This document shows positions 6,439-31,797 of a DNA stretch of 39,254 bases, in pieces. This DNA is from Paracoccaceae bacterium (GTDB lineage: Bacteria; Pseudomonadota; Alphaproteobacteria; Rhodobacterales; Rhodobacteraceae). Below the pieces are notes generated by a model. That model saw nothing but the letters and a program-made list of their open reading frames with translations, did no database searches and was not told where the DNA came from. The stretch covers positions 1 through 39,254 of the forward strand of contig JAGQRV010000051.1 of assembly GCA_020425125.1 (NCBI GenBank), in the 5' to 3' direction. Made by a program: the position numbers and the translations under genes. Position 1 is the stretch's first letter; each line of letters opens with the position of its first letter.

Positions 6439-6453
6439 GTGCTGCACTCCCTG

Positions 6454-7512
6454 TCAGCGGCTGAGGCCAAGTTCGCCGAGGATCTGCGCGATCCTTTCGT
6501 GGGACACGGTCCGCACATGCTCGAACGAGACGGGTTTCGAATGGGGCTGCGACCAGATCGGCTGGAGCCCTGCCGCGGCCTTGTCGGCAAGCGCACCGTG
6601 CTTCTTGACCCAGCCTTCGAAGAGCGCGCGGTTTTCCTTGCCGTACTGCTCGTCGTTCACGAGCAGGTACATCAGGTCGATCGTGTTCGCGAGGTTGCGC
6701 TCGTAATCGGCCTCGGCTGCCGAGATCACGGGCGGGGTCACGAAATCGTTGTTCGCCGCCGCCGCCTGCATCAGGAAGCCCGAGCGGAACAGTTCGCCCA
6801 CCAGAGGTTCGAAGATGATGTTGATCGCGAAGTACTGCTCCAGATAGTCCTCGGTCCCCATGATGGTCTCGACCGCTTCGCGCGTGGGCTGCCAGATCGG
6901 GTCCTCGAGCCAGGTCTTCTTGCCCAGATCGTCGTCCCAGCCGGGGATATCCATGCCGATCTCGGCGAGGTACAGCGTGATGTCCTGGCAGAGCCGCATC
7001 TTGTACGACGAGTTGGTCAGCGTCGCGTTGTTGATCATCTGGGTGTAGCCGTAGCGCTGCGCCTGCATCAGCGACGTGCCGAGACCGAACTCCACATGCT
7101 TCCAGGCGCCCAGATGCTTCTGCAGGATGGTCTGCCAGACCCGGTCGAAGGCCTGCGGCGCGCCGGCCTTGCGGGCATTGGCGATCACCGCCTGCACCAT
7201 CGTCTCGATCTTGGACTGGCGCTGGTAGTGGGTTCGCTCCCATTCCTGGTCGGGCGCCCGGAAGGCATGCCAGTTGGAGCTTTGCGCCCGCGTATTGTCC
7301 TTTACATAGGCGCCCTTGCCGTCCGCGAAGGAAATGATCCAGTCCTGGATCAGGTAGCGCTCGGGATCGGGCTGGACGTCGACGGTGACGTCCTCGTAAT
7401 GGGTCGCCCGCTTGCCGCGCGGCTCGAAATACCGGTATTTCCGGCTGGCCGAGCCCGCGAAGATCGCGGCACCGGCAGCTCCCGAACCGACAGAGCTTGA
7501 AGTTGCTGGCAT
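6454..7512 (-). CDS. prmC: Diiron monooxygenase hydroxylase beta subunit
   Basis: A 352-residue beta subunit of the hydroxylase (ferritin-like helical fold without the iron site), which packs against the alpha subunit in the (alpha-beta)-type dimer. Seen blocks typical of group 5 beta subunits are SRKYRYFEPRGKRATHYEDV near the N-terminus, a middle HVEFGLGTSLMQAQRYGYTQ stretch, and a long helical C-terminal half. The alpha subunit's E-x-x-H iron pair is absent, as expected. The first 25 residues are low-complexity Ser/Gly/Ala. The ATG at 7512 follows GGGAG; the gene begins 27 bp after prmB ends. Confidence 0.94.
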   Translation of the reverse strand: MPATSSSVGSGAAGAAIFAGSASRKYRYFEPRGKRATHYEDVTVDVQPDPERYLIQDWIISFADGKGAYVKDNTRAQSSNWHAFRAPDQEWERTHYQRQSKIETMVQAVIANARKAGAPQAFDRVWQTILQKHLGAWKHVEFGLGTSLMQAQRYGYTQMINNATLTNSSYKMRLCQDITLYLAEIGMDIPGWDDDLGKKTWLEDPIWQPTREAVETIMGTEDYLEQYFAINIIFEPLVGELFRSGFLMQAAAANNDFVTPPVISAAEADYERNLANTIDLMYLLVNDEQYGKENRALFEGWVKKHGALADKAAAGLQPIWSQPHSKPVSFEHVRTVSHERIAQILGELGLSR

Positions 7513-7539
7513 TGTCTTGGTCTCCCTGTTCCTTGAGGA

Positions 7540-8628
7540 TTACTCGGCGGCCGCAGCGGTCGGATGCGGCGCATCCGCGGCCGCGCCGGACGTCGTGGTG
7601 AACTTGTCGTAGAAGATCCGGTCGGTATCGAAGTCGAGCATGAAGAGGACCGGCGTCAGTGCGTCGATCATCGGCGGCGGCCCGCAGGCATAGACGTCGC
7701 CCTCGCCCTCGATCCCCAGCTCGCGCAACCTGCGGTCGACGGCCTCGTGAACGAAGCCGCGTTCGCCCTGCCAGTCGGCATCGTCATCGGCGTGGCTGAG
7801 CACGGGCACGAAGGTGACGTTCGGATGCGCCTCGGTGATCGCCGCGATCTCGTCGAGCTTGAACAGATCGTCCTGCGTCCGCGCCCCGTAGAAGAACCAG
7901 ACCGGGCGGTCTTCTCCGCTGGCGATGTGATCGTTGAGGATCGACCAGACCGGCGACATGCCCGAGCCGGCCCCGACGAGGATCATGGGTCCCTCTCGTC
8001 CTTCCCGGCGGAAGCACATTCCGTAGGGGCCTCTGACCCGGACTTCGGCACCGTTCCGGATTCCGCCGCTGTCGAGCTGGTTGGAGAACTTTCCGTCTGG
8101 ATATTTCTTGATGATGAAGGAGAGCCTTTCGCCTTCGCTCGGCGGATTTGCCATGGAAAACGAACGCGTGATCGTCTCCCCTTCTTCCGTTGTGACGGTG
8201 ATGTCGACATATTGGCCGGCCCAGAATTTCAACGGCGAGTCGAGGTCGATCTCGACGCTGCGGATGTCGTGGGTCAGCCGGTCGAAGCCGACGATCCGCC
8301 CGGTGAAGTCCTTGACTGCGATGGCTTTCGACAGGACCTCCTCGTCGAAATTCAGAAGCTCGATGTCCACGTCCGTATAGGCGTGGGACCGGCACATCAG
8401 GATGTGGCCGGAATCGCGCTCCGAGTCGTTGAGCGCGAAGGTCGAGTACTTGAGCAGATCCACCTCGCCGTCGAGCAGGATGCACTTGCAGGCCGAACAC
8501 TGGCCTTCCTTGCAGCCGTGCGGCAACGCGATGCCTTGCCGGAACGCGGCATCAAGGATCGTCTCCCCCTCCTCGACCTCGAACTGGACGCCGACCGGTT
8601 CCAACCGGACGGTATAGGTGTCCGCCAT
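7540..8628 (-). CDS. prmB: Monooxygenase NADH reductase ([2Fe-2S] ferredoxin + FAD/NAD domains)
   Basis: A 362-residue reductase that passes electrons from NAD(P)H through FAD and a plant-type [2Fe-2S] cluster to the hydroxylase. The cluster ligands are C39, C44, C47 (GCKEGQCSACKC) and C79. The flavin motif TRSFSMAN is in the middle domain. The nucleotide domain shows GAGSGMSP and a C-terminal YACGPPPM. The Ala/Pro-rich tail of about 15 residues is extra. The ATG at 8628 is preceded by GGAGGT at ideal spacing, which rejects a longer start at 8643. Its place between the alpha and beta hydroxylase genes is diagnostic of the group 5 (propane/THF) monooxygenase layout. Confidence 0.95.
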   Translation of the reverse strand: MADTYTVRLEPVGVQFEVEEGETILDAAFRQGIALPHGCKEGQCSACKCILLDGEVDLLKYSTFALNDSERDSGHILMCRSHAYTDVDIELLNFDEEVLSKAIAVKDFTGRIVGFDRLTHDIRSVEIDLDSPLKFWAGQYVDITVTTEEGETITRSFSMANPPSEGERLSFIIKKYPDGKFSNQLDSGGIRNGAEVRVRGPYGMCFRREGREGPMILVGAGSGMSPVWSILNDHIASGEDRPVWFFYGARTQDDLFKLDEIAAITEAHPNVTFVPVLSHADDDADWQGERGFVHEAVDRRLRELGIEGEGDVYACGPPPMIDALTPVLFMLDFDTDRIFYDKFTTTSGAAADAPHPTAAAAE

Positions 8629-8701
8629 TTGGTGACCTCCCAAGACCTCTCCGTTCCCGGCCAGGGATCTGGCGGGCGACGAGGTGTTCTGGTTGCGGTG
8701 G

Positions 8702-8725
8702 GGCGGAGGCCGCGCGGCCCCCGCC
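8702..8725 (-). other. Intercistronic hairpin between prmA and prmB
   Basis: Two 12-base arms (GGCGGAGGCCGC and GCGGCCCCCGCC) form an almost perfect GC-rich dyad with one A/C mismatch, 10 bases past the prmA stop. The 106-bp prmA-prmB gap is the longest inside the core. It may set a higher prmA dose or slow RNA decay. Confidence 0.4.
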
Positions 8726-8734
8726 GTTGATCGC

Positions 8735-10402
8735 TCAGTTGCAGGGATTGATGGTGAACCCGGCCTTGTACTCGGCGATGTGCTTCTCGCGATCCGCGGG
8801 GCTCATCTCGCGCAGGAGCGTGAGCGGCGACAGCAGCGTATGGCCGCGCACGTCGTCGAGCGTCCACATGTCCTTGTCGTCGAAGCGCAGATGCGGCTGC
8901 GGGATCAGGGTCTTACCGTCCTCGCGAACGAAGTTCAGATCCTTGATCGCGTCGGCCAGATCCCAGCCGTGGTACAGCGTCTCCCACTCGCGCTTGCCCG
9001 AGAAGCGGCCCATGGCGGGTGTCGGGCGTCCCTCGTACTCGTCCGAGAACGCCTCGACGGCCGTCCAGCGGTCAAGCTCGTGCGCAAAGGTATGCAGCTT
9101 GCCGTCGATCTCGTCGACGACCATGTCCTCGCGGATGAGGCACGGCACCAGGCACGACCAGCAGCGATGCGGGTAGACGTAGCCGACATCCTCGTTGAAG
9201 GTGATCACCTTCTGGCCCGGCTTCGACAGCTTGCCGTACCATTTCCAGAAATCGCCGAACTCGGCGTACCAGCCCGGGTACTTGTGCTCGAACCACTCGA
9301 AGTCCTTGTCGGTCTGGGCCTCGATTCGCCAGAAGTTCACCGGCCAGCCGACTGCGAAGAACTGCGCGACCTTGTGGACGTAGTTCTTCTTGGTGATCCG
9401 GTTCCAGGCCTCGTGGACGTCGTCGTGATGCACCTTGATGCCGTACTTTTCCAAGGGAAGCATGTAGGTGCGGTAGTAATCCTCGAAGATCCAGCGGTGC
9501 CACATCTCCGCATAGGACTCCTTGTCCTTGTCGCGGTTGGTTGTGCCGTATTCGATGAACGTCCCAATGGCCGCATCGACGATGGCGTGGTTCTGCCAGA
9601 ACGCGTAGCGCAAGTCGCGTTCCAGAAGCAGATGGTTCTCCGGCTCCTTCAGGGCCGCCATCAGCATCGAGTGGCCGTTGCCGATATGCCGGCTTTCATC
9701 CGACTGCACCGACAGGAACACGGTCGGCAGGGCATAGTCGCCGTTGCGGGCCGCTTCCGATGGCATGGCCACGAAAAGCGTGTTGGTGAAGGCGGTCTCG
9801 GCGACGACGGTCAGGTACATGCAGGCGGCGGTCATGGTGTCGCCGGTGATGAAGCCCTCGCCGAACTGGCGGCCGATCGTGGTGGCATAGCACTTGCCGA
9901 AGGCTTCCTCGGTAATGTCGAACCCGGCCGGGTCGATGTAGTTCTCCATGTACCACTTCTTCAGGTTCATCTGGATCGTGGAATGGCGGAACTCGTCGAC
10001 CATCTGCATGGTGAAGCCGGTGCGCAGATCCTCGCCCGGCGCCAGACGGCCGACCATCGCCATGGAGCGCGCGGCAGAGATTTCCGGAAACGGGATGATC
10101 GCCAGGAACAGCTTCATCCATTCGACCCAGCGCGGCTCCACATTGCGGAACATGTCGCCGCGGAGGGCCGCATCGAGCGCGCCGTAGACGCGGTTGTCCT
10201 TTTCTTCCTGCATCGGGAAGTAGGACCGCAGCACCTGCTTCATCGGATCGCGCGGCGCCTTGGTGATCTTGTAGTCGGTGGGGAAGGTGTTCGCTTCCTG
10301 GACATAGGTCGGGTTCCACCCCAGGTCGGCGATCTTCTTCGTCGCCTCCCCGACCGAGATGCCCCGCTGGGACGTGATCTTGTTGAGCGTCAAAGACGTC
10401 AT
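8735..10402 (-). CDS. prmA: Diiron monooxygenase hydroxylase alpha subunit (propane monooxygenase type)
   Basis: A 555-residue catalytic subunit holding the carboxylate-bridged diiron centre that inserts an oxygen atom from O2 into a C-H bond. The six ligands align with those of MmoX: E107 (PFPEISAA), E137 and H140 (VDEFRH), E202 (VAETAFTN), E236 and H239 (SDESRH). The blocks LPTVFLSVQSDESRH and NGHSMLMAAL are characteristic. The length and A-B-C-D gene order point to group 5 (PrmA/MimA/ThmA); exact substrate (propane, THF, phenol, acetone) cannot be told from sequence. The ATG at 10402 follows GGAGG at eight bases; the frame extends to 10642 but that part does not resemble the family. First gene of the operon, under the sigma-54-type promoter at 10673-10687. 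Confidence 0.96.
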   Translation of the reverse strand: MTSLTLNKITSQRGISVGEATKKIADLGWNPTYVQEANTFPTDYKITKAPRDPMKQVLRSYFPMQEEKDNRVYGALDAALRGDMFRNVEPRWVEWMKLFLAIIPFPEISAARSMAMVGRLAPGEDLRTGFTMQMVDEFRHSTIQMNLKKWYMENYIDPAGFDITEEAFGKCYATTIGRQFGEGFITGDTMTAACMYLTVVAETAFTNTLFVAMPSEAARNGDYALPTVFLSVQSDESRHIGNGHSMLMAALKEPENHLLLERDLRYAFWQNHAIVDAAIGTFIEYGTTNRDKDKESYAEMWHRWIFEDYYRTYMLPLEKYGIKVHHDDVHEAWNRITKKNYVHKVAQFFAVGWPVNFWRIEAQTDKDFEWFEHKYPGWYAEFGDFWKWYGKLSKPGQKVITFNEDVGYVYPHRCWSCLVPCLIREDMVVDEIDGKLHTFAHELDRWTAVEAFSDEYEGRPTPAMGRFSGKREWETLYHGWDLADAIKDLNFVREDGKTLIPQPHLRFDDKDMWTLDDVRGHTLLSPLTLLREMSPADREKHIAEYKAGFTINPCN

Positions 10403-10672
10403 GCCATGAGCCTCCGTTGTTGTCCCGGCACCGCGCGGCGCGGCGCCATGCGACGGCCAGAGCCGCCATTCTTGCTGTCCGATCCGGGGCGCGCCTGCTC
10501 CGCGCGGCTCCGCATCGCCTGGATCACGGCAAAGGTTCTGGTCGGTTCCCGGCCGCCGCTGGTGCTCCCTGCCCCGCCATGCGGGTCTGGATCGCGGCGT
10601 CCTCGGTCCTCCCATCCTTCGTTCTTGTCGCGTCCCGGACACACCGGGTCGGCTTCTTCTGCATGACTAGAC
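10403..10672 (-). other. Long GC-rich leader of the prm operon
   Basis: If transcription starts about 12 bases below the -12 element (near 10661), the prmA message has a leader of roughly 260 bases. It is GC-rich with runs of GCGC complementarity near 10425-10445. I see no known riboswitch and no supportable small gene in it. Confidence 0.35.
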
Positions 10673-18628: not shown

Positions 18629-18764
18629 CGATTCTCTTGGAGGATTTTTCTACTCGTTCGGCGTTTTCTGACGCTGATCGCCAAATACTGCAAGAGATAC
18701 GCCAGCCTTTGGCCACAATTCGCGCCCCTATTGGCCCATGATCCCTGAAACGGAGGATCCCGCG

Positions 18765-21446
18765 ATGAACATGATGGACGTCCGCCCGGCCGACGCAACG
18801 GATACCGATCCCGAGGAGACCGCGGAATGGATCGAGGCCCTCGAATCCCTGGCAGGCACGGACGGTCCTGACCGGGCGCAATTCGTTCTGAAGCGCGTCC
18901 TCGAGGCGGCGCAACGTCTGGGCGTGCCCCTGACCGGGCTTCCCTATTCGGCCTACCGCAACACGATCCCGGCGTCGCGCCAGCCGGCCTATCCGGGCGA
19001 CCTCGCGGTCGAAGAACGGATCACCTCGATCATCCGGTGGAACGCCCTCGCGATGGTGATGCGTGCGAACCGGGCGCATGGCGAACTCGGCGGGCATATC
19101 GCGTCGTTCGCCTCTGCCGCCGAGATCTTCGAGACCGGCTTCAACCATTTCTTCCGCGCCGCCGGCGACGGCAGCGCCGGCGACCTCGTCTTCTTCCAAC
19201 CCCATTCCGCCCCCGGCATCTATGCCCGCGCCTTCCTCGAAGGCCGCCTGGCCGAGGCCGATCTGGCCCGCTACCGGCAGGAGCTTCCCGGTCCCGGCCT
19301 CTGCTCCTACCCGCATCCCTGGCTGATGAAGGAGTTCTGGCAGCTTCCCACCGGATCGATGGGGATCGGCCCGCTGTCCGCCGTCTACCAGGCCCGCTTC
19401 ATGCGGTATCTGTCGGCGCGCGGACTGGCCGAGACCTCGGGGCGCCGGGTCTGGGGCGTCTTCGGCGACGGCGAGATGGACGAACCCGAAGCCATCGCCG
19501 GGCTGACCCTCGCCGCGCGCGAAGGGCTCGACAACCTGACTTTCGTGATCAACTGCAATCTCCAGCGGCTCGACGGCCCGGTGCGCGGCAACGGCCAGAT
19601 CATCCAGGAACTGGAAGCCCTGTTCGTCGGCGCCGGCTGGAACGTGATCAAGGTACTGTGGGGTTCGGAATGGGACGCGCTGTTCGGACGCGACCGCAAC
19701 CACGTCTTGCTGCGCCGCTTCGCCGAGACGGTCGACGGGCAGTACCAGGATCTCGGCTCCAAGGACGGGGATTACAACCGCCACAAGTTCTTCGAGGCCG
19801 ATCCCGAAAGCGCGGCGCTGGTCCGCGACATGACCGATGACGAGATCCACCGCCTGAAGCGGGGCGGCCACGACATGCAGAAGCTCCACGCCGCCTTCGC
19901 CGCGGCCGTTGCGCACAAGGGCCAGCCGACCGTCATCCTGGCGAAGACCAAGAAGGGCTACGGCATGGGCGGCGCCGGAGAGAGCCGGATGATCGCGCAT
20001 CAGGCCAAGAAGCTTGACCTCGCGGCGCTGCGGGACTTCCGCGACCGTTTCGACCTTCCGCTGAGCGATGCGCAGGTGGAGGCGCTGGACTTCTACCGCC
20101 CTGCGGACGGCAGCGCGGAACTCGCCTATCTGCGCGACCGGCGCCGCGCACTTGGCGGCCACCTGCCCCGGCGCGCGCTTGCGGCGGCGCATCCCGCACC
20201 GGCCCACCCGAAGCTGGCCAGCTACGCCGGTTTCGCAATGGCGCCCGAGGGCCGGGCAATGTCGACCACCATGGCCGCCGTACGGATGCTGGGCGGATTG
20301 CTGCGGGACAAGGCGTTCGGACCGCGCCTCGTGCCCATCGTCGCCGACGAGGCCCGCACCTTCGGCATGGACAGCCTGTTCCGGCAGATCGGCATCTACG
20401 CGCCCGCCGGCCAGCTCTACGAGCCCGAGGATGCGGGTTCCATGCTCTATTACCGCGAGGCGGCGACCGGCCAGCTTCTCGAGGAAGGCATCACCGAGGC
20501 CGGCGCGATCAGTTCATGGACCGCCGCCGCAACGGCCTACAGCGCCCATGGCGTCGAAATGCTGCCGGTCTACATCTTCTATTCCATGTTCGGCTTCCAG
20601 CGCGTCGGCGACCTGATTTGGGCCGCCACGGACCAGCGGGCGCGCGGCTTCCTGTTCGGGGCAACCGCCGGCCGAACCACGCTGTCGGGCGAAGGTCTCC
20701 AGCATCAGGACGGCTCCAGCCTGCTGCAGGCGGCAACGATCCCGACCTGCCACGCCTACGACCCCGCCTTTGCCTACGAGGTCGCGGTCATCCTCGACCA
20801 CGGCATGGCGCGGATGCTCGACGAAAAGCGCGACGAATTCTTCTACCTGACGCTGATGAACGAATCCCAGCCCCAGCCGGCCATGCCGGACGGCTCGGCA
20901 GACGACATCGTCCGGGGACTTCACCTGATCGCCCGATACGGACCGGCGGACGGCCCGCGGGTTCGCCTTCTCGGCTCGGGCACGATCCTGGCGGAGGTGC
21001 TTGCCGCCGCCGAAATTCTTGCCGAAAGCCACGGCATCGCCGCCGAGGTGTTCAGCGCGACCAGCTATTCCGAACTGGCCCGAGACGCTGCTGCGGTTGA
21101 GCGGCAGAACCGGCTCACCGCAGCGCCCGACATTCAGACCAGCCATGTGGAGCGGCTGCTGGCCGGCCCAGCGCCGGTCATCGCCGCGTCGGACTATGTG
21201 CGCGCCGTTCCGCAGCAGATCGCGCCCTGGATCCGTGCGCGCTACACAGTCCTCGGCACCGACGGGTTCGGACGGTCATCGGATCGCCGGACGCTGCGCC
21301 GCTTCTTCGAGGTCGACCGCCATCATGTCGCGCTCGCGGCAGTGGAGGCGTTGGTCAGAGACGACGCACTTCCCCACACGATTCTGGACACCGCGCTGCG
21401 GGATCTGGAGATCGACCGTGCGGCGCCGGCGCCCTGGACCAGGTAG
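18765..21446 (+). CDS. aceE: Homodimeric 2-oxoacid (pyruvate-type) dehydrogenase E1
   Basis: An 893-residue thiamine-diphosphate E1, close to the 887 of E. coli AceE. The ThDP motif GDGEMDE is at residues 234-240, followed by INCNLQRLDGPVRGN. Active-site histidines are conserved at GGHIAS (H111), FFQPHSAPG (H147) and the AHQ loop. The family decarboxylates pyruvate, or 2-oxobutanoate in MdeB. No E2 or E3 gene is nearby, so it must use lipoyl partners made elsewhere. The ATG at 18765 is chosen for GGAGG nine bases upstream; an ATG at 18738 would add nine residues. It is divergent from an Lrp gene, so induction by an amino-acid or 2-oxo-acid signal is probable. Confidence 0.9.
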   Translation: MNMMDVRPADATDTDPEETAEWIEALESLAGTDGPDRAQFVLKRVLEAAQRLGVPLTGLPYSAYRNTIPASRQPAYPGDLAVEERITSIIRWNALAMVMRANRAHGELGGHIASFASAAEIFETGFNHFFRAAGDGSAGDLVFFQPHSAPGIYARAFLEGRLAEADLARYRQELPGPGLCSYPHPWLMKEFWQLPTGSMGIGPLSAVYQARFMRYLSARGLAETSGRRVWGVFGDGEMDEPEAIAGLTLAAREGLDNLTFVINCNLQRLDGPVRGNGQIIQELEALFVGAGWNVIKVLWGSEWDALFGRDRNHVLLRRFAETVDGQYQDLGSKDGDYNRHKFFEADPESAALVRDMTDDEIHRLKRGGHDMQKLHAAFAAAVAHKGQPTVILAKTKKGYGMGGAGESRMIAHQAKKLDLAALRDFRDRFDLPLSDAQVEALDFYRPADGSAELAYLRDRRRALGGHLPRRALAAAHPAPAHPKLASYAGFAMAPEGRAMSTTMAAVRMLGGLLRDKAFGPRLVPIVADEARTFGMDSLFRQIGIYAPAGQLYEPEDAGSMLYYREAATGQLLEEGITEAGAISSWTAAATAYSAHGVEMLPVYIFYSMFGFQRVGDLIWAATDQRARGFLFGATAGRTTLSGEGLQHQDGSSLLQAATIPTCHAYDPAFAYEVAVILDHGMARMLDEKRDEFFYLTLMNESQPQPAMPDGSADDIVRGLHLIARYGPADGPRVRLLGSGTILAEVLAAAEILAESHGIAAEVFSATSYSELARDAAAVERQNRLTAAPDIQTSHVERLLAGPAPVIAASDYVRAVPQQIAPWIRARYTVLGTDGFGRSSDRRTLRRFFEVDRHHVALAAVEALVRDDALPHTILDTALRDLEIDRAAPAPWTR

Positions 21447-21506: not shown

Positions 21507-23528
21507 TCAGCCGTAGCTGCGCCGGATGCCGTAAAGCCGCATCTTGCGGTAGAGGGTAGGACGCGAGATGCCGAGACAGGCGGCGACACGCGTCATGTTG
21601 CCCTGCTCCCGCTCGATCGCCTCCAGGATAGCGCTGCACTCCATCGCCTCAAGGCTTGTCGGCGACGGACCTGGCTGGACCTCGGCCTCGCCCTCGACCA
21701 GGGTCGCCGCGTGGCCGGACCGGATCCCGGTCAGTTCTGTCGGATAATCCTCGGCCCGGATCTCTCCGTCCTGACTCAGAAGCATCAGCCGCTCGGTCAT
21801 GTTGCGCAATTCGCGCACGTTCCCCGGCCAGGCATAGGCATCCATCAGCCGCAGCAGATCGTCCGGCGGCTTGATCGGCGCGACCCGCATGCGTTTCGCG
21901 AACAGATCGAAGAAATGGCGCACCAGAATCGGAATGTCGCCGCGGCGGGCGCGCAGCGGCGGCACTGCGATGCTGATCGTGCTGATACGGTAGTAGAGGT
22001 CGCTGCGGAACCGGCCCCCGGCGATCGCGTCGCGCAGGTCCCGGTTCGTCAGCGCGACAAGCTGGACGTCGATCGGACGGCGGCGGCTTTCGCCGATGCG
22101 GTAGACAGCGCGCTGTTCGAGCACACGCAGAAGATAGGGCTGAATCTCCAGCGGCATCTCGCCGATCTCGTCAAGGCAGATCACCCCGCCATTGGCCAGT
22201 TCGAACTTCCCGGCCTTGCCTTCCCGGCTCGCGCCGGTGAAGGCACCCGGACTGTGACCGAACAGCTCGCTGCCCACCAGTTCGCTGGAAATCGCACCGC
22301 AATTGACCGCGACATAGGGCGCCGGCGCCTTGCGTTGACGCACGTCATGGACGAGCCGTGCGAACAGCTCCTTGCCGACCCCGGTCTCGCCCTGCACCAG
22401 GATCGAAGCCCCGGCCTCGGCCGCCCGCTGCGCGAGTTCGATCGCCTTCAGCAATCCCGGATCGCGGCCGAGGATGGTGATGGGCTCCTCGCTGGTCCCG
22501 GCCCGCGGCCGGATCTGGATGCCGGCGCTCTCCGATGATGCGCGGCCGCGCCGCTGGTCGGGCAGCAGCAGCGCCGCACCGCGCAACGATCCGTCAAGCC
22601 GCAGCCCCCGGATCCCGGCGGGCTTCAGTTCGCCCGGCAAGGCCGCCGCAATGGCATTGTCGTCCATGCCGTCCGTCAGGCGCAGCAGGCGCCGCCCGAT
22701 CTCCAGATGCTGCGACGGCGGCACCGCCCGCCGGTCGCCGACGCGGCAATCCACGACCCGACCCAGCCGGTCGAGAACCACGAGACTATCGCCCGAATTC
22801 GCCGGGCGCAGCAATTCGCGCGACGCATCGATCAGGCGCAGATGCTCGCGCTTCTGGAACTCTGCCAGCGCCGCCTCGATCCCCTGTGCAGAGGCGATCA
22901 GCAGCGCGGTGTTGTGCGGCCGGAAAATCCCCGGCGGGCCGGAGAGATCGACAAGACCGATGATGCTGCCGTCGAACGGATCGCGGATCGGCGCCCCGAC
23001 GCAGGTCCAGTTCTTGATGCCCGAGCAGAAATGCTCCGAGGCATGCACATGCGCGGGCTTGCCGGTCCTGAGCGGCGTGCCGATGCCGTTGGTGCCGATC
23101 ACCTCCTCGTTCCAGATCCCGCCCACTTCCAGGTGGATACGGCGCCCGGCATCCAGCGTGGCCGGATCCCCCAGGGTCTCGATGATCGTGCCCTGCTTGT
23201 CGGTGAGGATCAGCATGACCCCGGCATTTTCCAGCAGCGGCGCCAGACGGGCGAACACGTCGCTGGCCGCAGCGCGCAGATCGCTGCTGTCGTGCTTCAG
23301 GCGATGGATTTCGTCGCCGCCCCCGGCCAGCGGTGCCATATCGGCCTCGGCGCTGATCCCGGCCTCGCTGCAGCGGAACCACGACTCGAGTATCTCGGAA
23401 CGCACCCCCATCTGGTCCCCGCCGGTCCGGCCGCTGCCGTCCAGAAATCGCTCCCATGCGTCACGGGTCAGGGAATCGTCGTAGTCCTGGAAATTTCCGT
23501 TGAAGCAAGTCTGGCGTGTGTCGTTCAT
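21507..23528 (-). CDS. Sigma-54-dependent activator, AcoR/MimR type (GAF-AAA+-Fis)
   Basis: A 673-residue enhancer-binding protein. Residues about 95-225 form a GAF-like sensor (with WNEEVIGTNGIGT and VGAPIRDPFDGSIIG, as in AcoR). The AAA+ motor has Walker A GETGVGKE at 380-387, the sigma-54 contact loop GAFTGA at 428-433, and Walker B CLDEIGE near 451. A C-terminal Fis helix-turn-helix ends with CLGISRPTLYRKMRLYGIRR. AcoR-type activators respond to acetoin or other small ketones and alcohols; MimR, of this type, switches on mycobacterial propane monooxygenase. It is the best candidate for the sites upstream of prmA. The ATG at 23528 (AAGG upstream) is preferred to a GTG at 23552. Confidence 0.93.
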   Translation of the reverse strand: MNDTRQTCFNGNFQDYDDSLTRDAWERFLDGSGRTGGDQMGVRSEILESWFRCSEAGISAEADMAPLAGGGDEIHRLKHDSSDLRAAASDVFARLAPLLENAGVMLILTDKQGTIIETLGDPATLDAGRRIHLEVGGIWNEEVIGTNGIGTPLRTGKPAHVHASEHFCSGIKNWTCVGAPIRDPFDGSIIGLVDLSGPPGIFRPHNTALLIASAQGIEAALAEFQKREHLRLIDASRELLRPANSGDSLVVLDRLGRVVDCRVGDRRAVPPSQHLEIGRRLLRLTDGMDDNAIAAALPGELKPAGIRGLRLDGSLRGAALLLPDQRRGRASSESAGIQIRPRAGTSEEPITILGRDPGLLKAIELAQRAAEAGASILVQGETGVGKELFARLVHDVRQRKAPAPYVAVNCGAISSELVGSELFGHSPGAFTGASREGKAGKFELANGGVICLDEIGEMPLEIQPYLLRVLEQRAVYRIGESRRRPIDVQLVALTNRDLRDAIAGGRFRSDLYYRISTISIAVPPLRARRGDIPILVRHFFDLFAKRMRVAPIKPPDDLLRLMDAYAWPGNVRELRNMTERLMLLSQDGEIRAEDYPTELTGIRSGHAATLVEGEAEVQPGPSPTSLEAMECSAILEAIEREQGNMTRVAACLGISRPTLYRKMRLYGIRRSYG

Positions 23529-23617
23529 GTCGACCTTGTTGTTTGTCGTCACCTTGTGCCGGCGAGTTCAGAAGGCGGTCTCGACCCGCTACCGCGGTGC
23601 GCCCGCCCCGGAGGGGC

Positions 23618-24670: not shown

Positions 24671-25513
24671 GTGGCCCGCATCCTGATCCTGTCAAGCTGG
24701 GTGGCCGCAGGCCATGTCGGGCTCTGTGCCGCCGCCCCGGCATTGCAGGCACTCGGCCACTCCGTCAGCCAGTTGCCGATGACGCTGCTCTCGAACCATC
24801 CGGGCTGGTTCCGGACGGCCGGTCGGGCCGTGCCGCCGGACGACATCGCGGCGATGATCGACGCGCTGGACGCGAACGGGTGGCTCCATCGCCACGATGC
24901 CCTGCTCACCGGGTACCTGCCGACCGAAGAGCATGTCCTCCTCGCCGCCCGCCTGATCGACCGGCTCCGCGCTTGCGGGACGGCGCCGCGCATCGTCGTC
25001 GATCCGGTGCTGGGCGACGCCCCCGACGGGCTCTATCTGCCGGAAACGGTGGCCGACGCGGTGCGGCGCACCCTGCTGCCCCGCGCCGATATCCTCACCC
25101 CGAACGCCTTCGAGCTCGGCTGGCTGAGCCGACGGCCCGTCGCCACGCTGGCCCAGGCGCAGGCTGCGGCAGCGGCGCTGGCGAGCGTCGGTCCGCAGAT
25201 CCTCGTCACCTCGCCGCCGGTCGACGCACATACGACCGGCCTGCTCGCATTCGGCGACGGCGCCCCTCGACTGTTCCGCACCGCCCGGCGCGCCCCGGTG
25301 CCGCATGGCACCGGCGACGTCTTCGCCGGCTTCGTCGCTGCCGGTCTGCCGCCCGGCACCGCGCTCGGCCATCTCCAGACGCTGATCGGGGCGAGCCTCG
25401 GCGCCGCGCATCTGCGGATTGCAGAAGCCGCCGCGCTCTGGACCGCCGCGCCGCCGCTGCCCGCTGACATCCTGCCCACCACCTGCGAGACGCCACCGCT
25501 TGAGGAGACCTGA
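24671..25513 (+). CDS. Pyridoxal kinase-like (PdxK/PdxY family) protein
   Basis: A 280-residue ribokinase-fold kinase. It matches PdxY in SSWVAAGHVG at the start, LLSNHPGW near residue 40, LLTGYL near 80, VVDPVLGD near 110 and LTPNAFEL near 140. The catalytic-base motif HGTGDVFAGF is near residue 213. It should phosphorylate pyridoxal or a related alcohol with ATP. The gene starts with GTG at 24671 and a weak ribosome site. Its stop is three bases before the ATG of the TIM-barrel/MGS fusion, so the two are coupled. This makes a pathway-specific substrate (a small hydroxy-aldehyde or vitamin-like alcohol) as likely as vitamin B6 salvage. Confidence 0.82.
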   Translation: MARILILSSWVAAGHVGLCAAAPALQALGHSVSQLPMTLLSNHPGWFRTAGRAVPPDDIAAMIDALDANGWLHRHDALLTGYLPTEEHVLLAARLIDRLRACGTAPRIVVDPVLGDAPDGLYLPETVADAVRRTLLPRADILTPNAFELGWLSRRPVATLAQAQAAAAALASVGPQILVTSPPVDAHTTGLLAFGDGAPRLFRTARRAPVPHGTGDVFAGFVAAGLPPGTALGHLQTLIGASLGAAHLRIAEAAALWTAAPPLPADILPTTCETPPLEET

Positions 25514-25516: not shown

Positions 25517-26587
25517 ATGGCCTTCGACTTCATCCTGATGCTCACCGCCGAAGACCGCACCATTCCGGATGCCCGCGCCCGCCTCGACGAAGCGCTCGAC
25601 GGCGGCGCCCGGCATATCGGGTTCAAGGATGTAGGCCTGCCGCTTGGCGAGTTGCGCGGGCTGGCCGACGCGATCCGCGCCGCCGGCGGGCGGTCCTATC
25701 TCGAAGTGGTCAGCCTCGACGCGGACAGCGAACTCGCCTCGGCGCGGGCGGCGGTCGCGCTGGACGTGGACTGCCTGCTCGGCGGCACCCGCGCGGCGGA
25801 GGTGACCGAGATCACCCGCCACCATCCGATCCGCTACTATCCCTTCCCGGGCCGGATCACCGGGCATCCGAGCGTCCTCGAGGGCAGCGAGGCCGAGATC
25901 GCGGGCTCGGCCCGCGCGCTGGCCGATCTGGAGCATGTCCACGGGCTCGACCTTCTCGCCTACCGTCACGCAGGCGACGTCCCAAGCCTGATGCAGGCGG
26001 TCTGCGCCGCCGTCGCCAAGCCGGTCATCGTGGCGGGCAGCATCGACCGCGAGGCGCGGATCACCGCCACCGCCGAAGCCGGGGCGGCCGGGTTCACGGT
26101 GGGCACGGCGGCACTTGCGGGCGTCTTCCCGGCCGAGACGCGGGGCTTCATCGACCAGGTGCGCAGCATCCTTGCGATGACCGCCCGGGCCCGCGACCGG
26201 GCCACCGCGCCGCGCCGGCTGGCGCTCGTCGCCCACGACACCCGCAAGGCGCATCTGCGGGCCTGGGTGCTGCGCCATGCGAAGGCGCTCGCCGGGCACC
26301 GGCTGGTCTGCACCGGCGGCACCGGGCGGATGGTCGCCGACGCCGTGCCCGCGCTGGCGGTCGAGCGGCTCCAGCGCGGCGGCCGCGGCGGCGACCAGCA
26401 GCTCGGCGCGCTGATCGCGACGGGCGAGCTCGACGCGGTGATCTTCTTCGCCGACCCGACGATCCCCCATGGTGGCGACGTGGATCTGCAGGCCCTGACC
26501 CGCCTGGCCGTCCTCCACGACACCCCGATCGCGCTCAGCGGCGCCGCCGCCGACATGGTGGTCAAGGCGCTGATGGCCCGGCCCTGA
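25517..26587 (+). CDS. Fusion of a TIM-barrel protein with a methylglyoxal-synthase-like domain
   Basis: A 356-residue protein with two parts. Residues 1-225 look like a phosphate-binding TIM barrel: alternating strands and helices end in IVAGSIDREARITATAEAGA and GFTVGTAAL, like the phosphate loops of HisA/TrpC-type barrels; I cannot name its reaction. Residues 234-356 resemble MgsA, with VAHDTRK (H240, D241, K244), CTGGTG, GGDQQLGALI (D293, the catalytic Asp71 equivalent), FFADP, and PHGGDV (H318, D321). MgsA turns dihydroxyacetone phosphate into methylglyoxal and phosphate. Phosphate-site residues differ: MgsA Thr47 is Gly268, Ser65 is Arg287, and the C-terminal Arg150 region is missing. 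A different substrate, or no activity, is possible. Confidence 0.8.
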   Translation: MAFDFILMLTAEDRTIPDARARLDEALDGGARHIGFKDVGLPLGELRGLADAIRAAGGRSYLEVVSLDADSELASARAAVALDVDCLLGGTRAAEVTEITRHHPIRYYPFPGRITGHPSVLEGSEAEIAGSARALADLEHVHGLDLLAYRHAGDVPSLMQAVCAAVAKPVIVAGSIDREARITATAEAGAAGFTVGTAALAGVFPAETRGFIDQVRSILAMTARARDRATAPRRLALVAHDTRKAHLRAWVLRHAKALAGHRLVCTGGTGRMVADAVPALAVERLQRGGRGGDQQLGALIATGELDAVIFFADPTIPHGGDVDLQALTRLAVLHDTPIALSGAAADMVVKALMARP

Positions 26588-26604: not shown

Positions 26605-27270
26605 TTACCGCGGACGGATGCCGCTCAGGAACACCTCGAGCGCCAGATCGAAGCGCCGCTCCAGCGCGGCCTCGTCCGGCACCCGGTCGGGCGCAAGCAG
26701 CGCTTCCAGCGGCGAGGGGCGCGCCATGTCCAGAAGCAGCGCCGCCAGCGCACCGGTGTCCGAGGCGACGATCTCTCCCGCCGCGGCGGCCCGGTCGAGT
26801 TCGGCGCGGATGGTCTGCCCGGGCTCGATGCACGCGCTCTCGACCAGCCGCGCGCCCAGTTCGGGCCGGTCCGGCACTTCAGCCACGATGGCCCTGAGAA
26901 GGCTCAGCGGCAGGTGCAGGCCGGGCCCGCCCGGCGCCGGCTGCAGAAGCGCCCTGAGCCGCGCCTCGACCGGGGCACCGTCCATCTCCTGCCCCAGCGG
27001 GCGCAGATGTTCGGCCTTCAGCCGCTCCAGATAGGCCACGAACAGCGCCGTCCGGTCGGCGAAGATCGCATAGAGCGTGCGCTTCGACATCCCGGCATGG
27101 CGCGCCACCTCGTTCATGCTGAGCCCGTCCATCCCGGATCGCGCATAGATCGCATCGAGCGAATCGAGCACCTGCCGCCGCCGCTCCGCCTCGGTCGCGC
27201 TCGACGGCCGGCCGCGGCGCACGGGATGCCGTGCGCTGCAGCAGGGATCGTGATCTTCGCCTTCGCTCAT
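26605..27270 (-). CDS. TetR-family repressor of the RND pump
   Basis: A 221-residue regulator. The N-terminal helix-turn-helix is LSMNEVARHAGMSKRTLYAIF near residues 50-70, followed by a helical ligand domain rich in Leu, Arg and Ala. It is divergent from an RND efflux pair with a perfect 19-bp palindrome between them, so it should repress the pump and itself. The start is uncertain: ATG at 27270 is used, but in-frame ATGs at 27318 and 27327 exist, the latter with AGAGG 13 bases upstream. The stop is 17 bp from the convergent fusion gene. Confidence 0.88.
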   Translation of the reverse strand: MSEGEDHDPCCSARHPVRRGRPSSATEAERRRQVLDSLDAIYARSGMDGLSMNEVARHAGMSKRTLYAIFADRTALFVAYLERLKAEHLRPLGQEMDGAPVEARLRALLQPAPGGPGLHLPLSLLRAIVAEVPDRPELGARLVESACIEPGQTIRAELDRAAAAGEIVASDTGALAALLLDMARPSPLEALLAPDRVPDEAALERRFDLALEVFLSGIRPR

Positions 27271-27384
27271 GCCGGCCAGACAGGCATCGCGACCGCGCTC
27301 CTCTCCCGATCCGGACATTCGCGTCATGGGGTTGCCGGAACCTCTTGCATCGGCGCGAATGCCGGGATTAAGAAACCGCAGGGT

Positions 27385-27414
27385 TTTATATTTGTTTCGG
27401 GGACGTCTTGGCAA
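27385..27414 (-). promoter_or_regulatory. Likely sigma-70-type promoter of the tetR gene
   Basis: On the minus strand TTGCCA (27414-27409) and TATAAA (27390-27385) stand 18 bp apart. The -35 box lies inside the palindrome at 27402-27420, so bound TetR would block it. Confidence 0.5.
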
Positions 27415-27420
27415 GACGTC
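27402..27420. promoter_or_regulatory. TetR operator palindrome
   Basis: GACGTCTTG, centre G, CAAGACGTC: a perfect 9+1+9 palindrome in the tetR/RND intergenic region, 23 bp before the start codon of the adaptor gene. Size and place are typical of a TetR operator. Confidence 0.75.
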
Positions 27421-27442
27421 TGTCCGGAAGGAGCATTGACCG

Positions 27443-28627
27443 ATGACGACCCGAATCCTCTGCGCAATCGCGCTTCTCGCGTCCGGACTGCTGCTTCTGG
27501 GCCTGGCGGGTCCGGCCGCCGCGCAGCAGCCCGGCCAGGGCGCGCCGATGGCCGTCACCGTGGTCACGCTCCAGCCGCAGACGATCACCCTGACCACCAC
27601 CCTGCCCGGCCGCGTCGCCGCCTCGGCCGAGGCCGAGGTGCGCCCCCAGGTCAACGGCATCATCCTCGACCGGCTGTTCAAGGAAGGCGCCCACGTGGAT
27701 GCGGGCGATCCGCTCTACGAAATCGACCCGGCGACCTACAAGGCGGCGGTGGCGCAGGCGCGCGCCGCGGTCCAGCAGGCGCAGGTCCAGTACGACAATG
27801 CCGTGACCGAGGCCCAGCGCCTGAACGAACTGCAATCGCGCAAGGTCGCCAGCCAGCAGGCGCTCGACAATGCCCAGGCGACCCGTGACGCTGCTGCGGC
27901 GGCGATGCAGGTGGCCGAGGCGCAGCTGAGTCAGGCGCAGATCGACCTCGACCGCACCACCATCCGCGCCCGGCTCTCGGGCGAAATCGGCCTGTCGCAG
28001 ACCAGTCCCGGCGCGCTGGTCACCGCAAGCCAGGCCGATCCGCTGGCGGTGATCCGCAAGCTCGACCCGGTCTATGTCGACGTCACCCAGTCGGCCGCCG
28101 ATCTCCTGCGCTGGCGCCGCGGGCAGAGCGCCGAGGTTGCGGCCGATGCCGACAAGCAGGTCGAACTGATCCTTGCCGACGGGTCGACCTTCGACCACAA
28201 GGGCACCCTGACCGCGGCCGAACCCCATGTGGACCCGCAGACCGGCGTGGTCACGCTCCGGATGGAATTCGCCAACCCCGACCAGCTTCTGCTGCCCGGC
28301 ATGTATGTCCAGGTGAAGATGCCCACGGTCGCCGCGCACGACATCTTCCTCGCGCCGATGGAAGCGGTGGTGCGCGACCGCCGCGGCCGCCCGGTCGCCT
28401 GGGTGGTCAACAAGGACAACGTCGTCGAGGAGCGCCAGCTCACCGTGCTGCAGGATCACGGCAACGACTGGGTGGTCAGCCAGGGGCTCGAACCCGGCGA
28501 CCGCATGGTCGTCGCCGGCTTCCAGAAGACCGCCCCCGGCGCCACGGTGAAGCCCGAGGATCTCCAGGCCGCGGCTGCGCCCGCCGCCGATGGATCCGCC
28601 CCCGCAGCCGCTGCCCCGGCACAGTAG
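27443..28627 (+). CDS. RND efflux periplasmic adaptor (MexA/AcrA family)
   Basis: A 394-residue membrane fusion protein. A signal peptide spans residues 1-28 with cleavage likely after PAAA; there is no lipobox Cys, so it is not a lipoprotein. The lipoyl half-motif GRVAASAEAEVRPQVNGII, the Ala/Gln-rich coiled-coil hairpin (about 95-165), the second lipoyl half LSGEIGLSQTSPGALV, and the beta-barrel part are in normal order. The C-terminal tail is Ala/Pro-rich. AAGGAG precedes the ATG at 27443. The pump gene follows 23 bp later; no outer-membrane channel gene is present, so a TolC-type partner must be elsewhere. Confidence 0.93.
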   Translation: MTTRILCAIALLASGLLLLGLAGPAAAQQPGQGAPMAVTVVTLQPQTITLTTTLPGRVAASAEAEVRPQVNGIILDRLFKEGAHVDAGDPLYEIDPATYKAAVAQARAAVQQAQVQYDNAVTEAQRLNELQSRKVASQQALDNAQATRDAAAAAMQVAEAQLSQAQIDLDRTTIRARLSGEIGLSQTSPGALVTASQADPLAVIRKLDPVYVDVTQSAADLLRWRRGQSAEVAADADKQVELILADGSTFDHKGTLTAAEPHVDPQTGVVTLRMEFANPDQLLLPGMYVQVKMPTVAAHDIFLAPMEAVVRDRRGRPVAWVVNKDNVVEERQLTVLQDHGNDWVVSQGLEPGDRMVVAGFQKTAPGATVKPEDLQAAAAPAADGSAPAAAAPAQ

Positions 28628-28650
28628 CCCGAAGCGCCAGGAGCCGTCCG

Positions 28651-31600
28651 ATGGCCCGTTTCTTCATCGACCGCCCGGTCTTCGCCTGGGTCATCGCCAT
28701 CCTGATCATGGGGATCGGGATCCTGGCGATCCGCACCTTGCCGATCTCGCAATATCCCCAGATCGCGCCGCCGGAAGTGTCGATCTCGGCCACCTATCCG
28801 GGCGCCTCGGCCGAGACGCTGGCCAATACCGTCACCCAGGTCATCGAGCAGCAGATGACCGGACTCGACGGGCTCAGATACATCACGTCGAGCGCCACCT
28901 CGGACGGGCGCACCCAGGTCACGCTGACCTTCCGCACCGGCACCGATCCCGACATCGCCCAGGTCCAGGTGCAGAACAAGCTCTCGCAGGCGACGCCGCT
29001 GCTGCCGGAAGCGGTGCAGCGCCAGGGCGTCACGGTCGAGAAATCCTCGGCCGGGTTCCTGATGGTGATCGGCCTGATCTCGCCCAACGGGGAATTCGAG
29101 CAGGTCGACCTCGCCGACTACCTCGTCACCAACATGGTCGACGATTTCAGCCGGATCGAGGGCGTCGGCAGCATCCGCGTCTTCGGCGGCCAGTACGCGA
29201 TGCGGATCTGGCTCGACCCCGACAAGCTCGCCGCCTACGAGCTGGCACCGTCGGACGTGATCAAGGCGGTTTCCGAGGAGAACGCCCAGATTTCCGCCGG
29301 CGCCTTCGGCACCCGCCCCACCGTCGAGGGCCAGCAGCTCAACGCCACGATCACCGCCCAGTCGCTGCTCAGGACGCCCGAGGATTTCCGCCAGATCGTG
29401 CTGACGGCCAAGACCGACGGCGCGCTGGTGCTGCTCGGCGACGTCGCCGAGGTCGAGATCGGCGCCGAGAACTACGCCACGATCAGCCGCTACAACGGCC
29501 AGCCCGCCACCGGCATGGCGATCAGCCTCGCCACCGGCGCCAACGCGCTCGACACCGCGGCGCGGGTCAAGGACCGGCTGGCGGAATACGCCAAGTTCTT
29601 TCCCGAGGGGATGGACTACGTCGTCCCCTACGACACCACGCCCTTCGTGAAGATCTCGATCGAGGAGGTGGTGAAGACCCTGTTCGAGGCGATCGTGCTC
29701 GTCTTCCTGGTGATGCTGCTCTTCCTGCAGAACTTCCGGGCGACGCTGATCCCGACACTGGCGGTGCCGGTCGTGCTGCTCGGCACGTTCGGCATCCTCG
29801 CCGTTGCCGGCTTCACCATCAACACGCTGACCATGCTCGCCATGGTCCTCGCCATCGGCCTCCTCGTCGACGACGCCATCGTCGTCGTCGAGAATGTCGA
29901 GCGGATCATGGAGGAGGAAGGGCTCGAACCGCACGAGGCGACGCGCAAGTCGATGGACCAGATCACCGGCGCGCTGATCGGCATCGCCATGGTGCTCTCG
30001 GCGGTGTTCGTGCCGATGGCGTTCTTCGGCGGCTCCACCGGCGTGATCTACCAGCAATTCGCGATCACCATCGTCTCGGCCATGGCGCTGTCGGTCGTGG
30101 TGGCGCTGACGCTCACCCCGGCGCTCTGCGCGACGCTGCTGAAGCGGCCCAGCCACGACAAGAAGCGCGGCATCTTCGGCCTCTTCAACCGCGGCTTCGA
30201 CGGCGTCCAGCACGGTTATGCCGGGACGGTCGGCTGGCTGGTCAACCGCCCGTTCCGGATCTTCCTGATCTATCTCGCGCTCGCCGCGGGCATGGCCTAC
30301 ATGTTCGAACGCACCCCGACGGGCTTCCTGCCGGACGAGGATCAGGGCATCCTCTTCACCCTGATCCAGGCCCCGACCGGCGCCACCGCCGACCGCACCC
30401 TGGCCGTGGTCGAGCAGGTCGAGAACCATTTCCTGCAGGGCGAATCCCAGTCCGTCGCCTCGGTCTTCGGGGTGGTCGGCTTCAGCTTCGGCGGCAGCGG
30501 CCAGAACATGGGCATCGTCTTCGTCAAGCTGAAGGACTGGTCCGAACGCACCGGCCCCGGCCAGAGCGCCCAGGCCATCGCCGGCCGCGCCTTCGGGCAG
30601 TTCATGGGGATCCAGGACGCGATGGCCTTCCCGATCGTGCCGCCCGCGGTGATCGAACTGGGCAACGTGTCGGGTTTCGACTTCTATCTCCAGGCCCGCG
30701 GCGGGCAGAGCCACGAACAGCTGCTTCTCTCCCGCAACCAGGTCCTCGGCGGCGCGGCGCAAAGTCCGCTGATCGCCTCGGCACGGCCGAGCGGGCTCGA
30801 GGACGCGGCGCAGTACAATCTCGACATCGACTGGCGCAAGGCCGGCGCGATGGGGGTTTCGGCGACCGATGTGGGCAACCTGCTGTCGATCGCCTGGGCC
30901 GGCCGCTACGTCAACGACTTCATCGACCAGGGCCGGATCAAGAAGGTCTATGTCCAGGGCCAGGCCGACGCCCGCGCCACGCCGTCGGACATCGAGAAAT
31001 GGCGCGTGCGCAACAGCTCCGGCGGGCTGGTGCCCTTCGCCAATTTCTCGGTCGGCAACTGGACCTACGGGCCGCAGGGACTCTACCGCTACAACGGCGT
31101 GCCGGCGATGCAGATCCAGGGCTCGCCCGCGCCGGGCACGACGACCGGACAGGCGATGGCCGAGATGCAGAACATCGTCAGCCAGATGGAGGGCAACTAC
31201 AATCTGGCCTGGACCGGCCTGTCGCTCGAAGAGATCGAATCCGGCAACCAGGCGCCGCTCCTCTACGCGCTGTCTCTGGCCGCGGTGTTCCTATCGCTCG
31301 CCGCGCTCTATGAAAGCTGGTCGATCCCCTTCGCGGTGATGCTGGCGATGCCGATCGGCGTGCTCGGCGCGCTGGCCGGCGCCTGGCTGGGCGGATTCGA
31401 GAACGGCGTCTTCTTTCAGGTGGGCCTTCTGACCGTGATCGGCCTGACCGGCAAGAACGCGATCCTGATCGTGGAGTTCGCGCGCGACCGCCACGCCGCC
31501 GGCGAACGGGTGGTGGATGCCGTCCGCGAAGCCGCGCGGCAGCGCTTCCGGCCCATCATCATGACTTCCATGGCGTTCTCGCTGGGGGTCCTGCCGCTGG

Positions 31601-31797
31601 TGATCAGCACCGGCGCCGGATCGGGCGGGCGCAACGCGATCGGCGCGGGCGTCCTGGGCGGGACGATCTCGGCCACCGTGCTGGGCATCCTCTTCGTGCC
31701 GCTCTTCTTCGTCATCGTCACCCGGATGTTCCGGCGCACCGGCGCGCTGCGGTCCGCGCCGGCGGTCAAGGATACCGGCACCTCCGCGACCGGCTGA
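28651..31797 (+). CDS. RND efflux inner-membrane transporter (MexB/AcrB, HAE1 type)
   Basis: A 1048-residue pump, the usual length. It starts with the family's MARFFIDRPVFAWVIAI. The proton-relay pair is in LLVDDAIVVVENVER (about residue 407) and the partner Lys in TGKNAILIVEFARD (about 940). Twelve membrane segments and two large periplasmic loops fit. The C-terminal PLFFVIVTRMFRR is typical. It should export hydrophobic drugs or solvents by proton antiport, with the adaptor encoded just upstream; solvent tolerance would suit an alkane-oxidising cell, but that is inference. GGAG precedes the ATG at 28651. Confidence 0.95.
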   Translation: MARFFIDRPVFAWVIAILIMGIGILAIRTLPISQYPQIAPPEVSISATYPGASAETLANTVTQVIEQQMTGLDGLRYITSSATSDGRTQVTLTFRTGTDPDIAQVQVQNKLSQATPLLPEAVQRQGVTVEKSSAGFLMVIGLISPNGEFEQVDLADYLVTNMVDDFSRIEGVGSIRVFGGQYAMRIWLDPDKLAAYELAPSDVIKAVSEENAQISAGAFGTRPTVEGQQLNATITAQSLLRTPEDFRQIVLTAKTDGALVLLGDVAEVEIGAENYATISRYNGQPATGMAISLATGANALDTAARVKDRLAEYAKFFPEGMDYVVPYDTTPFVKISIEEVVKTLFEAIVLVFLVMLLFLQNFRATLIPTLAVPVVLLGTFGILAVAGFTINTLTMLAMVLAIGLLVDDAIVVVENVERIMEEEGLEPHEATRKSMDQITGALIGIAMVLSAVFVPMAFFGGSTGVIYQQFAITIVSAMALSVVVALTLTPALCATLLKRPSHDKKRGIFGLFNRGFDGVQHGYAGTVGWLVNRPFRIFLIYLALAAGMAYMFERTPTGFLPDEDQGILFTLIQAPTGATADRTLAVVEQVENHFLQGESQSVASVFGVVGFSFGGSGQNMGIVFVKLKDWSERTGPGQSAQAIAGRAFGQFMGIQDAMAFPIVPPAVIELGNVSGFDFYLQARGGQSHEQLLLSRNQVLGGAAQSPLIASARPSGLEDAAQYNLDIDWRKAGAMGVSATDVGNLLSIAWAGRYVNDFIDQGRIKKVYVQGQADARATPSDIEKWRVRNSSGGLVPFANFSVGNWTYGPQGLYRYNGVPAMQIQGSPAPGTTTGQAMAEMQNIVSQMEGNYNLAWTGLSLEEIESGNQAPLLYALSLAAVFLSLAALYESWSIPFAVMLAMPIGVLGALAGAWLGGFENGVFFQVGLLTVIGLTGKNAILIVEFARDRHAAGERVVDAVREAARQRFRPIIMTSMAFSLGVLPLVISTGAGSGGRNAIGAGVLGGTISATVLGILFVPLFFVIVTRMFRRTGALRSAPAVKDTGTSATG

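Follow-up and report, generated by a model that had tools for sequence, protein, structure and literature searches.

The Fusion Gene and Its Domains

The 39,254-nucleotide contig JAGQRV010000051.1 of a Paracoccaceae bacterium (assembly GCA_020425125.1), whose whole length we call the window, carries a gene in which a TIM barrel is fused to a domain derived from methylglyoxal synthase (MGS). Recognized both as an open reading frame (ORF) and from its relatives, the gene is a single uninterrupted frame of 356 amino acids at 25517-26587 on the forward strand. The barrel is of the phosphate-binding type and occupies residues 1-226 (25517-26194, forward), as delimited by AlphaFold2 and conservation; the MGS-derived domain occupies residues 231-352 (26207-26572, forward) and is marked by residues conserved in all 50 aligned fusions. 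The MGS half passes the cut-offs of NCBIfam NF003559 (129.6 bits, cut-off 84) and Pfam MGS (31.8 bits, cut-off 24.1), misses that of TIGR00160 MGSA (102.7 bits, cut-off 146.9), and matches MgsA in a search of Protein Data Bank (PDB) sequences (best E = 8.9e-27). The N-terminal half, modeled alone with AlphaFold2, is predicted to fold as an eight-strand alpha/beta barrel (pLDDT 89.9, pTM 0.88); the whole chain gave a pLDDT of 88.4 and a pTM of 0.86.

A scan of genome contigs yielded 59 distinct loci, 58 of them with both halves; in the remaining one (L061, Labrys) a cupin, not MGS, comes after the barrel. Since the fusion recurs at 58 loci of other genomes, an artefact of assembly or reading frame is rejected. 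The only fusion locus with a broken frame in the ORF map comes from a metagenome-assembled genome (MAG; L057). Both halves are under purifying selection, with a median dN/dS of 0.17 for the barrel and 0.23 for the MGS domain (823 non-independent pairs, dS 0.05-1.2). The reverse strand is also open across the stretch, as is usual for GC-rich DNA. The joint occurrence of both halves in 58 of the 59 loci goes far beyond chance. The domain arrangement is real, and we found no prior description of it: a search of open-licence papers returned neither the fusion nor the barrel family.

Judged by record titles, the hosts are mostly Rhodobacteraceae and allied families, with a few Rhizobiaceae/Hyphomicrobiales and two Verrucomicrobia MAGs. 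In the latter (L046 and L048) the fusion is found at 70% identity, and its neighbors in L046, read by eye, are ordinary housekeeping genes (IlvD-like and mannose-1-phosphate-guanylyltransferase-like). The genome of the window has a single barrel match, the fusion itself. Our alignment (A2) covers 50 of the 59 loci and the window, with nine loci omitted; it comprises 50 fusions, the window's included, and the Labrys barrel.

The Upstream Kinase

Directly upstream of the fusion lies a gene for a PdxY/PdxK-like kinase of 280 amino acids with a GTG start (24671-25513, forward), whose stop codon is three bases from the ATG of the fusion. The end of the kinase gene contains GAGGAG (25503-25508, forward), read from the sequence as a possible ribosome-binding site. 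The protein matches Pfam Phos_pyr_kin (3.6e-17), and among solved chains it comes closest to pyridoxal kinases (5zw9, E = 2.1e-31). It shares the SNH, GYL, DPvLGD and GTGD motifs with PdxY and PdxK but falls below the equivalog cut-offs, with 157.7 bits against NF004398 PdxY (cut-off 292) and 128.7 against TIGR00687 (cut-off 144.5). It also differs from PdxY in having SNHP for SNHT and an altered N-terminal loop.

The kinase often accompanies the fusion without being obligatory: it is found upstream in 29 of the 58 other fusion loci, and 21 of 35 whole genomes (34 with the fusion, plus Labrys) have a close copy of at least 53% identity. The locus count derives from 30 of 61 after removal of repeats (L062, the same as L027, and L063, the same as L023) and of the non-fusion locus L061. 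The gene is within 13 nt of the fusion in 27 loci (in pieces in L020) and about 0.8 kb away in L017 and L052; in the genomes of L010 and L025 the close copy is on another contig. It is missing in 14 of the 35 genomes, Labrys included, five of which have only a relative at 34-40% identity. Nor is the kinase a general gene of the family, since a kinase-family match with E below 1e-30 occurs in three of 37 same-family genomes, its own included (G000, G026 and G008); the same count makes it unlikely to be the ordinary pyridoxal kinase of the organism.

Residues of the MGS-Derived Domain

Equivalent residues are given in brackets in E. coli MgsA numbering. Invariant in the 50 aligned fusions are H240 (H19), K244 (K23), T266 (T45), D293 (D71), D323 (D101) and R329 (R107), as well as R287. 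At D241 (D20), 44 fusions have Asp and six have Asn; at D313 (D91), 48 have Asp. Compared with MgsA (NF003559 and TIGR00160; PDB 1b93 and 6f2c), the domain sits behind a barrel and lacks a His at the position of H98. Three further changes had been predicted and are seen in the alignment: the Thr47 position is Gly in 46 of 50 fusions (Ser in three, Glu in one), the Ser65 position is Arg in all 50, and the C-terminal Arg150 region is missing from the window protein and from seven other fusions shown.

The original prediction also held that the catalytic residues H240, D293, H318 and D321 are kept, and that two residues were deleted before the active-site His. The segment running from FF to the conserved Asp reads FFWDPLNAVPHDPDVKA in the fusion and FFADPTIPHGGDVDLQA in E. 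coli MgsA; the two are equal in length, so there is no net deletion and that claim falls. Only in L051 is the segment one residue shorter. Aligned without gaps, D313 corresponds to D91, D321 (Asp in 45 of 50) to D99 and D323 (Asp in 50 of 50) to D101, and we favor this register over the earlier one because D323 is the better conserved of the last two. H240 and D293, and also K244, are therefore retained as catalytic residues, D323 rather than D321 matches D101, and the assignment of H318 to H98 is insecure. In the ungapped register none of the 50 fusions has a His at the H98 position (residue 320), which is taken by Gly, Ser or another residue. Two residues before it, H318 is His in 46; of the others, L046, L048 and L055 carry a His at 315 and L050 carries neither. 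A gapped alignment, like the earlier one, could possibly bring H318 to the H98 position. The pLDDT in the whole-chain model is 75 for residues 281-290 and 72 for residues 311-320, so the geometry of these loops is less sure.

The Barrel

The barrel belongs to a family that neither Pfam nor NCBIfam names. Searched against Pfam, NCBIfam and PDB sequences, it gave partial weak matches, mostly over strands 6-8, and passed no Pfam or NCBIfam cut-off. Residues invariant in all 51 aligned close relatives include K37, D38, E63, Y107, H117, D145, Y149, R150, G174-S175 and G196. Among 44 diverse members of the family K37, D38, E63, H117, D145, R150, the GS after strand 7 and a T.G.A motif at strand 8 are invariant or nearly so. 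In the predicted structure the conserved residues are found at the C-terminal strand ends or close to them, that is, on the catalytic face.

A structure search with the whole chain was dominated by pyruvate kinase and MgsA, and the barrel was therefore predicted and searched alone. The best Foldseek matches are then TrpA and PcrB with glycerol-1-phosphate, while PdxJ ties with many other barrels. The comparison does not clearly single out any one of hexulose-phosphate synthase, PdxJ, TrpA, PcrB/GGGPS and KDPG aldolase as the closest fold. With HisA (phosphoribosyl isomerase) the barrel shares the phosphate-site motif of strands 7-8, but the sequence match is weak, extends over some 50-80 residues of its C-terminal third, and misses the curated HisA/HisF cut-offs (PF00977, 16.4 bits, cut-off 23.6; TIGR00007, 14.6 bits, cut-off 228.95). 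Tryptophan synthase alpha and PcrB/GGGPS (12-19% identity in the Foldseek rows) and hexulose-phosphate synthase (17%) show no sequence match at the family level. The MfnB-type 4-HFC-P synthase, with its Lys on strand 2, is absent among the structure matches listed, which excludes nothing. Next to the active-site motifs of TrpA, PcrB/GGGPS and hexulose-phosphate synthase, the K37-D38/E63/H117/D145-R150 pattern is apparently the barrel's own. The earlier statement that no reaction can be named for the barrel still holds after these domain, structure and literature searches.

The Barrel Family Outside the Fusion

The barrel is matched in 32 of 385 sampled alphaproteobacterial genomes, 31 of them clearly, the window's included. 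Across 398 genomes of the phylum, a threshold of E 0.001 is passed by 43, of which 12 count as clear members (E below 1e-80), the remainder being short weak matches. Twenty-two plasmid records match it, 20 at 58-63% identity, one from Tistrella at 48% and one from Staphylococcus warneri at 32%. Six of these records were opened for gene order. The order LysR, DUF1537 kinase, PdxA, barrel is found in four of the five opened plasmids of alpha- and betaproteobacteria, the kinase being missing in the fifth, and two opened records have a cupin either fused to the barrel or placed after it. On the S. warneri plasmid (L071, 7992-8654) a distant barrel of 29-32% identity has IS257 copies on both sides; the annotated stretch holds none of the usual partners of the barrel.

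PdxA is directly upstream of the barrel (70 nt or less, same strand) in 13 of 45 non-fusion loci read, which are not all from different genomes and four of which hold less than 1 kb upstream. The 13 include near copies (L111, L112 and L136; L076 and L179), and in seven of them a DUF1537 kinase is ahead of PdxA. PdxA and barrel form one chain of 603 amino acids in L175. Among the 58 fusions PdxA is directly upstream in one (L049), and a DUF1537 or stand-alone cupin match within 1.5 kb in none. Among solved structures, D-threonate-4-phosphate dehydrogenase (6e85) is a closer relative than E. coli PdxA of the PdxA of L072, which NCBIfam names PdxA. Three stand-alone barrels (L072, 7995-8693; L074, 7989-8669; L076, 7989-8717) are named 4-hydroxythreonine-4-phosphate dehydrogenase, a name apparently borrowed from the adjacent PdxA.

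The setting resembles the PdxA2/DUF1537 operons for four-carbon acid sugars (D-threonate, D-erythronate), in that seven non-fusion barrels lie inside DUF1537-PdxA operons, whereas the fusion in the window adjoins neither gene. The established D-threonate and D-erythronate pathways are not known to include such a barrel.

Genes found within 1.5 kb of the barrel among 41 survey loci include glycerol-1-phosphate-dehydrogenase-like genes (five), class II aldolases (three) and a glycerol-3-phosphate dehydrogenase (one), each with a connection to triose phosphates. A second context of the family is seen in L124 (3788-6577, also with a HAD-IIB phosphatase), L130 (6032-8029), L171 (4562-7062), L122 and L131, where a distant barrel is tightly paired with a glycerol-1-phosphate-dehydrogenase-like gene. 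In L117 (4261-5936) two phytanoyl-CoA-dioxygenase-like ORFs, seen by eye, are immediately upstream of the barrel; one of the two has no NCBIfam match at 1e-10.

Origin of the Fusion

In a tree of 65 barrels, rooted for drawing only and with a long-branch warning for L071 and the L111 group, the 20 MGS fusions cluster together with support 89/99, and 88% of bootstrap trees need a single change. The fusion has a single origin in this tree. Its group arises from an unresolved fork with ten PdxA-linked and three cupin-only barrels, and the subgroup with L049 also contains members from Rhizobiaceae and Verrucomicrobia. The PdxA-linked L111, L112 and L136 group, with weak support (88/47), with the distant barrels, whose neighbors are glycerol-1-phosphate-dehydrogenase-like, class II aldolase, RraA-like and DeoR genes; the glycerol-1-phosphate-dehydrogenase label shows no more clustering on the tree than after shuffling. 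A plain reading is that a PdxA-linked ancestor gave rise to one MGS fusion, after which PdxA was lost and the kinase gained in Rhodobacteraceae. The tree permits this order of events and is not proof of it.

Other MGS and Vitamin B6 Genes in the Same Genomes

The genome of the window also encodes a canonical MgsA, which passes both model cut-offs and is 48% identical to the MGS domain of the fusion; its gene adjoins a glycerone-kinase-like gene (below cut-off) and ABC transporter genes (by eye). The fusion is the sole MGS-like match in 33 of 34 genomes sampled from the 58 fusion loci, and the genome of L007 has one more. A stand-alone MGS match was found in six of 34 same-family genomes without the fusion (one of them weak) and in none of the other 28. 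As so many genomes without the fusion likewise show no MGS, the sole-MGS count is weak evidence that the fusion replaces MgsA. For vitamin B6 synthesis the genome of the window has one PdxJ and two PdxA genes over cut-off, the second PdxA adjoining DapA-like and Fe-alcohol-dehydrogenase genes.

Other Genes in the Window

Downstream of the fusion (26605-31797) are a TetR-like ORF on the reverse strand and RND-efflux-like genes on the forward strand (27443-31797), all read by eye; no link to the fusion was seen. A soluble di-iron monooxygenase cluster (3044-10642, reverse) includes two Methane/Phenol/Alkene hydroxylase subunits, a 2Fe-2S/FAD reductase, an amidohydrolase and an FeS_assembly_P protein. 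Near it is a GroEL-like ORF (1330-3117, by eye), and a sigma-54 activator (21507-23552, reverse) may belong with it. At 18738-21446 (forward) is a pyruvate dehydrogenase E1-type protein of 902 amino acids with PDH_E1_M and transketolase domains, next to an Lrp-like ORF (by eye); neither an E2 nor an E3 gene was noticed beside it, no dedicated search having been made.

Proposed Function

From a four-carbon acid phosphate PdxA forms, by oxidation and decarboxylation, a ketone phosphate of three carbons, either dihydroxyacetone phosphate or 1-amino-3-phosphooxyacetone. The former is the substrate of MgsA. One report assigns PdxA2-type enzymes a role in organic-acid catabolism (PMC9997740), and another describes bacterial conversion of L-threonate to dihydroxyacetone phosphate (PMC12540250). 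A three-carbon ketone phosphate would be the simplest common thread between the PdxA-type products and the MGS ancestry. We propose, as a tentative reading that falls somewhat short of probable, that the barrel handles a PdxA-type three-carbon ketone phosphate and that the MGS-derived domain removes its phosphate.

In the scheme we infer, which extends to the substrate class, the direction of flow, the phosphate elimination and the role of the kinase, the fusion would be a catabolic enzyme whose two domains serve a small phosphorylated ketone, and the pyridoxal-kinase-like protein encoded upstream would supply the substrate in phosphorylated form. The barrel, whose family members nearest the fusion are commonly partnered by a PdxA-type dehydrogenase, would convert the three-carbon ketone phosphate that this dehydrogenase produces. 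The MGS domain would then draw a proton from the ketone phosphate and expel phosphate, giving methylglyoxal or a close analogue, and probably can still do so because the equivalents of H19, K23, D71 and D101 are kept; the new Arg of the phosphate loop would make up for the loss of Ser65, Thr47 and the C-terminal Arg. The original prediction of a two-step enzyme agrees with the phosphate motifs of the barrel, the MGS ancestry, the adjacent kinase and the PdxA link, but its residue argument was partly mis-aligned. Weighing against the scheme, the loss of H98 warns that the MGS half may not be a canonical synthase.

The channeling first suggested for this fusion, in its plainest form, would make the barrel an aldolase-type lyase or isomerase that produces dihydroxyacetone phosphate from the product of the kinase, with the MGS half a working synthase that drains it. 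This would suit the passed NF003559 cut-off, the four catalytic equivalents present in 50 of 50 fusions, the kinase three bases upstream and the fusions that are the sole MGS-like protein of their genome. It is nonetheless unlikely, given that H98 is displaced or lost, T47 and S65 are replaced and the TIGR00160 cut-off is missed; an ordinary MgsA, next to a glycerone-kinase-like gene, is encoded in the window genome as well, and the sole-MGS point is weakened by the 28 fusion-free genomes noted above. Alternatively, the MGS half may have ceased to be a catalyst and instead regulate the barrel by binding a small molecule or by oligomerizing, like the MGS-like domains of carbamoyl-phosphate synthetase. 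The absence of His at the H98 position throughout, the loss of H318 in four of 50, the replaced Ser65 and Thr47, and the lineages whose barrel has a cupin or nothing in the C-terminal place would all agree with this. H240, K244, T266, D293 and D323 are, however, present in every aligned fusion, the median dN/dS of the domain is 0.23, and the D71 base would be superfluous in a purely regulatory domain, so that we consider a regulatory role rather unlikely.

A tie to vitamin B6 or hydroxythreonine metabolism, with the barrel acting on 1-amino-3-phosphooxyacetone, would draw on its PdxJ-like fold and its nearness to PdxA and a pyridoxal-kinase-like gene. We find it improbable: the ordinary PdxJ and two PdxA genes leave no gap in that part of the pathway in the window genome, the kinase scores below the cut-offs for pyridoxal kinase, the PdxA of L072, despite its NCBIfam name, is closer among solved structures to D-threonate-4-phosphate dehydrogenase than to the E. 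coli enzyme, and PdxJ is one of many barrels tied in the fold comparison. The ketone phosphate reading is the one we prefer, and the PdxA-linked context of the family shifts the likely substrate towards a PdxA-type product. In its bolder form, which we hold to be possible but doubtful, the barrel would make or present a three-carbon ketone phosphate other than dihydroxyacetone phosphate, such as the PdxA-type amino analogue, and a rebuilt MGS site with the loop Arg and no His98 would expel its phosphate, ending an undescribed catabolic route as a new phosphate-eliminating enzyme.

If this is true, the barrels that stand alone or are fused to PdxA, cupin or MGS would constitute a new enzyme family. 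The family is widespread yet nameless, and its fusions to PdxA, cupin and MGS offer a direct handle on the reaction of the barrel. The MGS half, for its part, is a natural experiment in how far a methylglyoxal-synthase site can change.
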